DNA from: Acidobacteriota bacterium
GTDB taxonomy: Bacteria > Acidobacteriota > UBA6911 > RPQK01 > JAJDTT01
Direction: 5' to 3'
Assembly: GCA_028874215.1 (NCBI GenBank)
Contig: JAPPLF010000093.1
Span: forward strand, 1-44,269
Length of the DNA stretch: 44,269 nt
The notes beneath the pieces were generated by a model. The model had not been told where the DNA came from, did no database searches, and saw nothing but the letters and a program-made list of their open reading frames with translations. Positions within the stretch are counted from its first letter, which is position 1, and each line of letters opens with the position of its first letter. The position numbers and the translations under genes were made by a program. Positions 32,197-41,964 of this stretch are shown here, one piece after another.

Positions 32197-32674
32197 GCCT
32201 TTGTGGGTCAGTTATTTGTGGTTGTGGGCCGTTTGGGAGCCAGATCACCGTGTTACTCTCCTCCCTAGCGATCCAACTTTACGCCCCGCCCACGCAGCGA
32301 GGAACGAGGATGGCCCCCATTGCAGTGCGCCACCCTCTTGCTGGTCACAGGGTCAGTATATATTTCGTTCGCCTATTTGGGGCAGAAATTCGGATTGGGA
32401 CTTCAGTAGGTATCGCCGACCCGTTGCTTCGGCCCGCTTGTTGAATCCTCGGCATTGCAATGACGCTCGAAGATCCTCGCTACCATGGAATCGGCGACGT
32501 GGAACGGTGTGAGATAGAGGCCGTGGGCTTCGGATTGTTGATCGGAGTATTGAGATACTAACTACTCTCCGATTCCGTAGGATACGAGCCAACCCGCCCG
32601 CTGGCAGACGACCGAGATGTTAATCCCTTGATCGGATAAAATTCATCATATCACCGAATACTGAAGAAATCAAA
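32197..32674. other. Gene-free stretch after the restriction gene
   Basis: I see no gene. An inverted repeat, ATCGGAGTA (32541-32549) against TACTCTCCGAT (32563-32573), could form a hairpin, but no T-run follows, so terminator function is uncertain. An 8-base AAATCAAA at 32667-32674 is the left target duplication of the element that follows. Confidence 0.6.
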
Positions 32675-32698
32675 GGGGATTGTACAGTTGACTAGGCA
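32675..32698. repeat. Left terminal inverted repeat
   Basis: 24 bases starting with four G; the eighth base is G here and A in the other end. Preceded by AAATCAAA. Confidence 0.9.
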
Positions 32699-33024
32699 AA
32701 CCTCCCCTTTTTCCCCGTTTTCCACCCAATCAAGTCGAATGGGTTGCCGGGCCCGAGTCGAAAACCGTTCCAGCCCAAACATCTTACAGAATTGATAGCG
32801 AGTAGTAACTGGAAGCAATCTCCGGAAGCGAGCGAATCGAACCCGTACCTGCCCACATTCGAGACGACCAAGACTGCGCCGATAAACAGGTGAAGAACAG
32901 TCCCCGAGGTCCCCGTGGACAGGGCAGCCGGGTCGAACGGGAAGTTTGCAGCTTCAAGTCCTGCCGGGGGTGGCCCCGTCATCGATCAGGCATTTGATAT
33001 TGGAGTGTTAAGGGGCTCTGCCGT

Positions 33025-33258
33025 TCACTCGTCTCTCTTGAGAGTAGCGGACAGGTAGAGCAGGGCCCGTCCAAGCTCTTCAGCTGTTCTCGCGTCCAGG
33101 TAAGCCCAACCGTAGGAGGCACTTCCTTCTCGTGCTGGTTCTCCGATTGAGAGGACGCATTTCCCGTTCTCGTTTGGCGGATTGATCCAGAATACTCGAT
33201 GCTTTTCTTCGGGCTGACCTGCACCTGGATCGACTTTGATCGGACTGTGTAGACTCAT
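33025..33258 (-). CDS. Small unknown protein carried by the element
   Basis: 77-residue product, start MSLHSPIKVDPGAGQPEEK, with a GGGGGAG ribosome site a few bases before ATG 33258. It is soluble and mixed in charge, with HRVFWINPPNE, SYGWAYLDARTAEELGRALLYLS. The last helix is regular. I recognise no family. Its good ribosome site and position inside the element suggest a real cargo gene. A second open frame (32692-32982) exists on the same strand but has no supporting site. Confidence 0.6.
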   Translation of the reverse strand: MSLHSPIKVDPGAGQPEEKHRVFWINPPNENGKCVLSIGEPAREGSASYGWAYLDARTAEELGRALLYLSATLKRDE

Positions 33259-33499
33259 GGCACTCCCCCTTCAAGCAAGTAAGATACTGTCATACACCAA
33301 ATTCCTCAAATTCCTGAAAATACTGCGATGGACCTGAAATAAAATGTGTGTGATGGAGGGGACATGTACTGTTCGTCGAGGACCGAGCAACGCTCGATAA
33401 CGACCGCTTGAGCTTGGTAGCGGAGGACTCGTCGCTGGCTCTCAGTGAGCGAACCTTTCCCCACCCCCTCCATCCTACACCGTGATGGCGGAGGGTTGT

Positions 33500-33574
33500 T
33501 AGAGCCTGTGGGTCTCGAGCCCACGTTTCCCGATCCAGGGTCGGGAGTCTTCGCCGGACTAAAACCAAGGCCCC
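33500..33574 (-). other. tRNA-like sequence inside the element (possible tRNA pseudogene)
   Basis: On the minus strand a 75-base segment folds as a standard cloverleaf: acceptor GGGGCCT with AGGCTCT (seven pairs, two G-U), U8, a D-arm GTTT/AGAC with a GG in its loop, anticodon arm CCCGA/TCGGG with a 7-base loop, a 4-base variable loop, T-arm GTGGG/CCCAC with TCGA kept in its loop, and discriminator A. The third acceptor pair is G-U, as in tRNA-Ala. Oddities: base 33 is C not U, loop position 54 is C, the first pair is G-U, one extra base in the D-loop, and no encoded CCA. The anticodon loop is CCCTGGA. A competing fold pairs GTTAGAG (33498-33504) with CTCTAAC (33592-33598). Confidence 0.4.
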
Positions 33575-33655
33575 TCGGTCTTCCGCCGTCACTCTAACAC
33601 CTTGTCAGGGGTCGCTGGCACTCTTGTTTTTTTCCCAATGGAGAGGAGGGACGAA

Positions 33656-33877
33656 ATGCCCAGAAAGCCACGCAACACTACTCGTTACAATGTCTGGCGG
33701 AACAGAAATATTGTTCACACGGGCATCACGGATGACCCCGAACGAAGGCAACAGGAACACCGTAGGGAGTTTGGAGAAAATGCCAACCTAAGACCGGTTG
33801 GGCCAAAGGTGACGCGAGAGTCTGCTTTGAACTGGGAAGAGGAGCAACGGAGGAAAGGCAAGCCCACTGGACCGTGA
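33656..33877 (+). CDS. GIY-YIG-like mini-protein
   Basis: 73-residue protein starting MPRKPRNTTRYNVWRNRNIV and continuing HTGITDDPERRQQEHRREFG, then RPVGPKVTRESALNWEEEQRRKGKPTGP. The pattern (aromatic pair, G-I-T-D-x-P-x-R-R-x-x-E-H, later VGPKVTRESAxxWEE) is a compact GIY-YIG nuclease-like fold seen in short bacterial and archaeal proteins, which often end in the same GKPTGP-like tail, as I recall. It is the shortest form of the fold and may be a regulator or toxin rather than a full nuclease. GGAGGG sits five bases before ATG 33656. It lies inside the inverted-repeat element, so it is probably its cargo. Confidence 0.75.
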   Translation: MPRKPRNTTRYNVWRNRNIVHTGITDDPERRQQEHRREFGENANLRPVGPKVTRESALNWEEEQRRKGKPTGP

Positions 33878-33894
33878 GGGTCACGGTTTAGGAG

Positions 33895-33918
33895 TGCCTA
33901 GTCAACTGTATAATCCCC
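33895..33918. repeat. Right terminal inverted repeat
   Basis: Reverse complement of the left end with one difference; followed by the AAATCAAA target duplication. Confidence 0.9.
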
Positions 33919-33934
33919 AAATCAAAGCCCTCGG

Positions 33935-40048: not shown

Positions 40049-41608
40049 TCACGGTAGGGACGGCAGTTTCCTGCCACCCCCCGCACAGATCCGTGCGTGC
40101 CCGTTAGAGCACACGGCTCCTACCTTGGGTAATGACCGCCAGCCAAACCGTTGCGCCGGCCACGGGTGACGGATCTTCACGGACGGCCAAAGCAGCTTGG
40201 CCATCCGTCGCAGCCGTCCCCAGCTGAAGCGGTCGCGCTGGGATCGGCGGCGCAGCACTCGCAGCCATCGCCGTTGCAGCCGATAGCAGAAGCTTTGCAG
40301 CCAGCGCATGCTCCCCGGGACCGCAAAATAGTTGAGCCAGCCGTTCAGGACTCGTCCCAGCCATTTTCCTACCTCCCAGTGATCCGCGTGCCGTTGTCTC
40401 CACAGCCGCTTCCCCACTCGCCGCAGGGTCCGGTTCATCCGTTTCGCGCTTGGCTTGCGCCCCAGCCGGAATCGCCCCTTCCGGGTCTTCGCGCAATAGT
40501 GCGTGAATCCCAGGAAGTCGAACGTTTCCGGTTTCCGCTCCCCGCGTCGCCGTCGATTCGCTGCCGCGAATCTCCCGAACTCCACCAGTCGCGTCTTTTC
40601 CGGGTGCAGTTCCAGCCCGAACTCGGCGCACCGTTCCCCCAGGTCTCGGAGAAACCGCTTGGCGTCCGCCCGTCTCTGGAATCCGGCCACGAAGTCGTCC
40701 GCATATCGCACCAGAATCGCCTCCCCTTCGGGAACTCGCGGGCGCCACGTCCGATGGAACCACTCGTCCAGCACATAGTGCAGGAACACGTTCGCCAGCA
40801 CCGGGGAGACAATCGCGCCCTGAGGCGTCCCTCTCCCCGAGTCCGACCAGGTCCCGTCTTCCATCACCCCGGCGTTCAGCCATTTGCGAACCAGTCGCAG
40901 CACCCGCCGATCTCCGATCCTTCTCTCCACGAACCGCATGAGCTGTTCCCGGTCGATGGCATCGAAAAACGTGCGGATGTCCGCGTCCACGATCCAGTTG
41001 GCCTTTCGCCGTTCGATCCCGTAGGCCAAGGCATCCAGCGCGTCATGCGCCTTCCGTCCGGGCCGGAACCCGTAGCTGAGCCCGAGAAACTCCGCCTCGT
41101 AAATCGGCGTCAGGAGCTCGTCCACCACCGCCTTCTGAAGGATCTTGTCCTCCAGGGCGGCGACTCCGAGCGGTCGGGTCCGTCCGTCCGGCTTGGGAAT
41201 GTGCACCCGCCGGACGGGCGGCGCTCGGTACGCGCCCCGGTGTACGCGGCCATGCAGGTCCAGCAGACGCTCTTCCCGCTTCGCCCCGTACTCCTCCCAC
41301 CGCTCCCCGTCGATCCCCGGCGCGGCGTCCTTTCTCAGTCCGAGATAGGCGCGGCGCAGTGCCCCGACGGTGAGATGGTGCAAGAGCGCGGTCAGTCGCT
41401 CCTTGGGGTTTCTCGCGATCGCTCGCCGTATCCGGTCCGCCGCCTGGGACACGCTCCCCCGTCTCTGCGTCCGGCGCGTGCTGTGGCGAACCGAATTCCC
41501 CTTGGTTCCACCCCTTCGCTCCACGGACTCCGCCGAAGGTCTCCCCCCTTTGTTCGCCCGCTTCATCGCTACTATGGATGAATCCGATTGCTTCGTTTCG
41601 TCCATCAT
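40049..41608 (-). CDS. Group II intron reverse transcriptase/maturase
   Basis: 519-residue intron-encoded protein that supports splicing and retrohoming. Order: N-terminal RT0-like region (RRGSVSQAADRIRR), then ERLTALLHHLTVGALRRAYLGLRKDAAPGIDG, IPKPDGRTRPLGVAALEDKILQKAVV, DADIRTFFDAID, GTPQGAIVSPVLANVFLHYVLDEWF, the YADD catalytic site (VRYADDFVAGF), then LHPEKTRLVEFGRF and the maturase-type ETFDFLGFTHY, finishing with a basic thumb. The last codons lie in ribozyme domains V and VI, and the stop codon is at the very 3' end of the intron. This overlap is normal for some bacterial intron classes. The class (E-like) is not settled. The gene is intact. Confidence 0.93.
   Translation of the reverse strand: MMDETKQSDSSIVAMKRANKGGRPSAESVERRGGTKGNSVRHSTRRTQRRGSVSQAADRIRRAIARNPKERLTALLHHLTVGALRRAYLGLRKDAAPGIDGERWEEYGAKREERLLDLHGRVHRGAYRAPPVRRVHIPKPDGRTRPLGVAALEDKILQKAVVDELLTPIYEAEFLGLSYGFRPGRKAHDALDALAYGIERRKANWIVDADIRTFFDAIDREQLMRFVERRIGDRRVLRLVRKWLNAGVMEDGTWSDSGRGTPQGAIVSPVLANVFLHYVLDEWFHRTWRPRVPEGEAILVRYADDFVAGFQRRADAKRFLRDLGERCAEFGLELHPEKTRLVEFGRFAAANRRRRGERKPETFDFLGFTHYCAKTRKGRFRLGRKPSAKRMNRTLRRVGKRLWRQRHADHWEVGKWLGRVLNGWLNYFAVPGSMRWLQSFCYRLQRRWLRVLRRRSQRDRFSWGRLRRMAKLLWPSVKIRHPWPAQRFGWRSLPKVGAVCSNGHARICAGGGRKLPSLP
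40054..40119 (-). ncRNA. Group II intron domains V and VI
   Basis: Domain V is 40088-40119 on the minus strand: GAGCCGTGTG pairs back with CACGCACGGATC, with a TAAC loop and a two-base CG bulge, the usual catalytic hairpin. Domain VI follows (GGGGTGGCAGGAAACTGCCG) with the CCCTAC end. Both are within the maturase coding region. Confidence 0.85.
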
Positions 41609-41964
41609 GAGGTTCGGGTTGCTCCTTTCTCATGCGGCCCCGGTTCGACCACCAGGGCGAAATGAAGCCCTCCCAGGTCCCGATACAAGATGTGCGTGCG
41701 TGCCTGAGTTCTTGGACACCGCGGAGCCCGGCTGGCCCTCACCTTGTCGGCCCAGCCGGTGTTGCCTTCGACCGGGACTACAGTCTCGGCGCTTCCGTGC
41801 TTGGAGTTTTCGGTGCTCATTGGCCCCGCCCACACGCACCGCTACCGACGCTTCGCCGACGCCCTCACGAGCGCCCACGCACGGCTCGCGGAGAAACGCG
41901 GATGGTTAGTCCTTCGTTTCAGCGGACTTTCACCGCCTATCTTGCACCAGTTAGCCTGGCGCAC
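40054..41964 (-). mobile_element. Group II intron
   Basis: The minus-strand intron runs from a GTGCGCC 5' end (complement of 41964) to about 40054. The 5' end has the expected GTGCG start; domain I fills 41609-41964, before the maturase. Domain V and VI lie inside the maturase 3' end. The flanking exons are GGGGGGACT on the 5' side (41965-41973) and GTTAGTCCCCCC on the 3' side (40036-40046 in plus coordinates). Joined, they form a 9-pair hairpin, GGGGGGACT with AGTCCCCCC, so the intron sits in the loop of a palindrome of the type dispersed in this genome. Size, about 1.9 kb, is typical. Confidence 0.88.

Follow-up and report, generated by a model that had tools for sequence, protein, structure and literature searches.

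The pseudo-tRNA tRNA-Other of Bacillus cereus ATCC 14579 is island-linked, poorly charged, found off polysomes and part of a larger RNA, and its deletion leads to stress and antibiotic phenotypes (PMC3399842). Mobile tRNA arrays carry dense tRNA genes on mobile DNA (PMC5966550). MIC231-type mobile insertion cassettes, as cited in PMC2266710, surround passenger genes with the inverted ends of an insertion sequence (IS) and have no transposase. Here, we analysed a window of 44,269 nucleotides (the whole stretch of DNA under study, from contig JAPPLF010000093.1 of an Acidobacteriota bacterium, assembly GCA_028874215.1), in which we newly delimit a 1244-bp cassette with a tRNA-like cloverleaf on its minus strand. 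We propose, with what we judge to be about an even chance of being right, that this sequence is a tRNA-like gene which has diverged strongly and is probably transcribed, and that it is a passenger of a non-autonomous cassette with IS1595-type ends.

Among the systems above, tRNA-Other would be the closest functional precedent. Both it and the tRNA-like sequence have ties to mobile DNA, are called by tRNA finders and are unfit for normal translation (PMC3399842). Unlike tRNA-Other, however, the sequence described here lies inside a 1.2-kb cassette and has a tRNA-type -10 box nearby. The cassette resembles the MIC231 type in its architecture, but MIC231 ends belong to IS231 of the IS4 family, as cited in PMC2266710, whereas those of our cassette are IS1595-like and its passengers include the tRNA-like sequence. 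Likewise, it shares 8-bp target duplications with IS1595-family elements (PMC8101967) but differs from them in having no transposase gene. In contrast to the dense mobile arrays, the window holds a lone tRNA-like sequence without several conserved positions.

Scores, fold and promoter-like box of the tRNA-like sequence

ARAGORN made a single call in the whole window, a tRNA-Gln(ctg), on exactly the minus-strand interval that a first-pass annotation had singled out as tRNA-like (Table 1). The base-level description given there was accurate as well: the four paired stems, U8, the GG of the D-loop, G3-U70, C33 and C54 are all present, the T-loop (CTCGAGA) contains the claimed TCGA, and no CCA is encoded, A73 being followed by ACA. 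The stems are of standard length and comprise 22 pairs, three of them G-U and none broken. A covariance-model check with the Rfam tRNA model (RF00005) gave 36.2 bits in a sensitive scan, above the curated cut-off of 29, and in a scan of the whole genome (5.7 Mb) the sequence was match 52 of 53 (E 1.4e-5). A fast-filter Rfam scan run over the whole window did not detect it. On shuffled sequence, ARAGORN made three calls per 4.43 Mb for the window (~0.03 per window) and one call per 3.7 Mb for the element.

The acceptor carries G2-C71, G3-U70, G4-C69 and A73, which we take to be the alanine identity set, and the anticodon is of the Gln type. Its arms read GGGGC..GCUCU-A, as compared with GGGGC..GCUCC-A in the host alanine-type acceptor, and the closing pair is G1-U72. 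When aligned by structure, the sequence shares 43 positions with tRNA-Ile(TAT) and 41 with tRNA-Ala(CGC), against a mean of 35 under a null in which stems and invariants are preserved (post hoc p 0.0065, and 0.002 for Ala).

We trained a 10-base -10 matrix on the regions upstream of the genome's tRNA calls. With this matrix, the extended -10 box TGTTAGAGTG scores 9.5 bits, against a host tRNA median of ~6.7, a level equalled by 0.22% of random 60-mers (p ~0.002, also post hoc). No site in the element scores higher, and over the two strands of the window three sites, this one included, reach the 9.5-bit level. Among host tRNAs, strong -10 boxes stand 6-38 nt upstream, and this one stands at 15 nt.

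We scored the genome's distinct tRNA calls for 14 canonical tRNA features (among them U8, A14, G18G19, A21, U33, U54, U55, C56, A58, Y60 and C61). The tRNA-like sequence keeps 10 of them and lacks A14, U33, U54 and Y60; each of the 52 other calls keeps at least 13. Position 60 is an A. Position 14 reads as U, and a bulged U just ahead of A14-G15 would restore those two bases. Several observations weigh against a transcribed tRNA-like gene. Folded alone, the 75-mer has a rod, not a cloverleaf, as its minimum-energy structure (-32.8 vs -23.7 kcal/mol), and this gap of 9.1 kcal/mol is the largest among the genome's tRNA calls. A generic two-hexamer promoter scan gave no match for the sequence, which therefore has no good -35 box. 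Plain alignment to host tRNAs stays within the shuffled range, and the promoter and positional-identity tests were both made post hoc. Since only one copy of the cassette was found, there is no covariation evidence. Finally, it is the plus strand of 33483-33596 that folds better, with branches atop a long outer helix (z -3.16, with 0/200 shuffles as good), against a z of -1.87 for the minus strand.

Decoding, decay or coincidence

The alanine-type acceptor, the fully paired stems and the promoter-like box would all suit a working, if unusual, tRNA, which would either take alanine by way of G3-U70/A73 and read CAG (mis-sense) or serve as an extra tRNA-Gln. However, such a tRNA would have to function with C33, C54, A60, a U14 or a bulged U, and a G1-U72 closing pair, and without an encoded CCA, although most host tRNA genes encode one. 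Moreover, the host already owns a tRNA-Gln(CTG) and a tRNA-Gln(TTG), each with 14/14 conserved features, and mis-sense reading of CAG would be costly. Because U33, U54, Y60 and a regular D-loop are lost and CCA is not encoded, normal decoding is unlikely, and we consider a working tRNA very improbable.

The same losses of U33, U54, Y60 and CCA, together with the tRNA-type promoter box that is still in place, might instead suggest a normal tRNA that was captured by the element and then drifted neutrally. This was one of the readings offered by the first-pass annotation, and the state of the stems speaks against it. In simulated decay of host tRNAs, 15 random substitutions broke ~6 pairs and 0/400 sequences kept all of them; at least 15 substitutions never left every pair intact, and 10 did so in only 0.5%. 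Drift therefore does not account for the loss of 4/14 conserved features with all 22 pairs kept: selection acts on the fold, or else the sequence was never a tRNA. In addition, no close parent is found among the host tRNAs. Based on these findings, we regard decay as very improbable.

The main rival to a tRNA-like cargo is coincidence. In a GC-rich, hairpin-rich, non-coding stretch, the minus strand might meet tRNA models by chance, and the selected feature, if any, would be a branched plus-strand leader of the GIY-YIG gene with its terminator-like hairpin, perhaps acting by attenuation. The plus-strand fold reported above and the terminator-like hairpin, whose T-run lies ahead of the plus-strand open reading frame (ORF), make such a structured leader a real alternative, and its complement could mimic a tRNA by accident. 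The four wrong conserved features and the low plain identity to host tRNAs would fit as well. Against this stand the covariance score over the cut-off, the low false-call rate in shuffles, the excess of positional identity and a host-type tRNA -10 box correctly placed, at normal distance, on the minus strand. We therefore disfavour coincidence, doubtful in our view but by no means negligible. Of the three readings first proposed (decay, coincidence and a mimic borne by the element), the last, understood as a diverged tRNA-like unit, is the best.

For this diverged tRNA-like gene, we infer from sequence both transcription and a role outside translation. On the minus strand, the first transcribed base would lie shortly after the extended -10 box, and the resulting RNA most probably folds as a cloverleaf-capable, tRNA-shaped module. 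Any activity that it has would lie outside translation, as a module or decoy comparable to the B. cereus pseudo-tRNA. A bolder version, in which a transposon-borne, transcribed tRNA mimic (alanine-type acceptor, Gln CUG anticodon) would benefit the element by engaging the machinery of translation or that of tRNA cutting, either by decoying nucleases that target tRNAs or by working as a mis-sense tRNA, seems to us highly unlikely. If the sequence is expressed, very small cassettes without a transposase can carry and spread tRNA-like RNAs. They would then explain some of the puzzling pseudo-tRNAs in the output of annotation pipelines, and tRNA function outside translation could be tested on this case.

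The sequence is also flanked by an outer helix. We rejected this "tRNA on a stalk" as a distinctive trait, as it ranks 6th of 52 in the genome and pairing of the flanks is nothing unusual among host tRNAs.

The cassette, its passengers and its surroundings

Table 1. Coordinates of the cassette and of the features in and around it (positions in the window)
Feature	Position	Strand	Basis or remark
tRNA-like cloverleaf; anticodon CTG, G3-U70, A73, C33, C54	33500..33574	-	ARAGORN; Rfam tRNA 36.2 bits; feature test
Extended -10 box TGTTAGAGTG	33590..33599	-	15 nt upstream of tRNA-like sequence; matrix learned from host tRNA promoters
Outer helix around tRNA-like sequence, 3' arm TCCGCCATCAC	33482..33492	-	10/11 positions complementary to 33582-33592
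Outer helix around tRNA-like sequence, 5' arm GTGACGGCGGA	33582..33592	-	complementarity to 33482-33492
Terminator-like hairpin and T-run, before GIY-YIG ORF	33606..33634	+	
Mobile insertion cassette, 1244 bp, without transposase	32675..33918	.	terminal inverted repeats and 8-bp duplications; no transposase family match
Left terminal inverted repeat GGGGATTGTACAGTTGACTAGGCAAACCT	32675..32703	+	
Right terminal inverted repeat GGGGATTATACAGTTGACTAGGCACTCCT	33890..33918	-	
Target-site duplication AAATCAAA, left copy	32667..32674	+	
Target-site duplication AAATCAAA, right copy	33919..33926	+	
73-aa GIY-YIG-fold ORF, GGAGAGGAGGG ahead of start	33656..33877	+	relatives L003, L070; relatives match PF01541; model like UvrC GIY-YIG domain
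77-aa ORF behind GGGGGAG ribosome site	33025..33258	-	ORF search
Second large hairpin region, with 88% complementarity between its end arms	33346..33480	.	

The cassette is bounded by terminal inverted repeats (TIRs) of 29 nt that are 90% identical, and the 8-bp direct repeats lie flush outside both. Its cargo consists of a 73-aa ORF, a 77-aa ORF, the tRNA-like sequence and a second large hairpin, and neither of the two small ORFs matches a transposase family. Five IS1595-family matches occur in the same genome. One of these elements, on contig C81, has an end (GGGGATTATAAACTTGACTA) that matches the window TIR at 19/24 positions, its other end being degenerate. Target duplications of 8 bp are usual for IS1595 elements, and the related Merlin elements end in GG (PMC8101967). 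Given the TIRs, the 8-bp duplications, the likeness to the C81 end and these habits of the IS1595 family, we assign the element to the mobile insertion cassettes, with ends of the IS1595 type; an IS1595-type transposase may have moved it.

We did not find a second copy of the cassette in its own genome, in up to 396 genomes of the phylum, in viral contigs or in plasmids, using as queries the whole-element DNA, the TIR pattern and both passenger proteins; phage records were searched with the GIY-YIG protein and the tRNA-like region. A scan with the TIR core gave 13 exact matches in genome contigs and 7 in viral contigs, none with a convincing inverted partner, and we take them as chance matches.

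The cassette adjoins a GmrSD-type gene and lies in an insertion hot spot. The segment 30181-33964 is absent from three genomes of the same genus: G001 has 165 bp in its place, and G002 and G003 carry other inserts. We did not encounter a site that lacks just the cassette. As delimited here, the cassette provides a defined set of passengers (a GIY-YIG-fold protein, a small ORF and a tRNA-like sequence) beside a GmrSD-type defence gene in a variable hot spot.

The 73-aa protein is a member of a sparse family. It has no Pfam match of its own, but other members match the GIY-YIG model (PF01541), at best with 3e-4. Its structural model, of moderate confidence (predicted local distance difference test, pLDDT, 71), shows a beta-beta-alpha-beta-alpha order, and the closest fold matches are UvrC GIY-YIG domains (prob 0.93, E 0.16). 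For the 77-aa ORF, no relative was found in Pfam, plasmid or viral searches.

We also considered and rejected three candidate relationships. A duplication that would have given rise to the two hairpins of the cassette is not supported, their score being within that of shuffles. The inserts of the sister genomes at the same locus do not seem to hold the element, as they gave neither a tRNA call nor a match. Similarly, the 77-aa ORF did not align with an ORF between the tRNAs of contig C3.

These C3 tRNAs (locus L066, 5376-5451, 5928-6006 and 6554-6650; G000:C3:200376-201650) are three accessory genes at intervals of ~550-630 bp: one whose anticodon loop has 8 nt (agca), a Val(GAC) gene and a tRNA-Ile(TAT) of unusual type. 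A 47-nt repeat is shared by the regions upstream of the first and the third. On C81, an extra, low-scoring tRNA-Ala(GGC) (locus L121, 4810-4884; G000:C81) sits atop a long outer helix, ~1.2 kb from the IS1595-family element with the TIR-like end. A same-genus genome carries a 298-bp element (locus L127, 343-640; G003:C344) resembling a miniature inverted-repeat transposable element, with ends GGGGCTTATATACTT...TAGCC in a style like the window TIRs and with no target duplication seen.

The hot spot itself is flanked by two conserved genes, and its inserts in G002 and G003 hold AAA ATPase-like and transposase-like ORFs. Further along the window, a group II intron with a reverse transcriptase ORF occupies 40049-41930.
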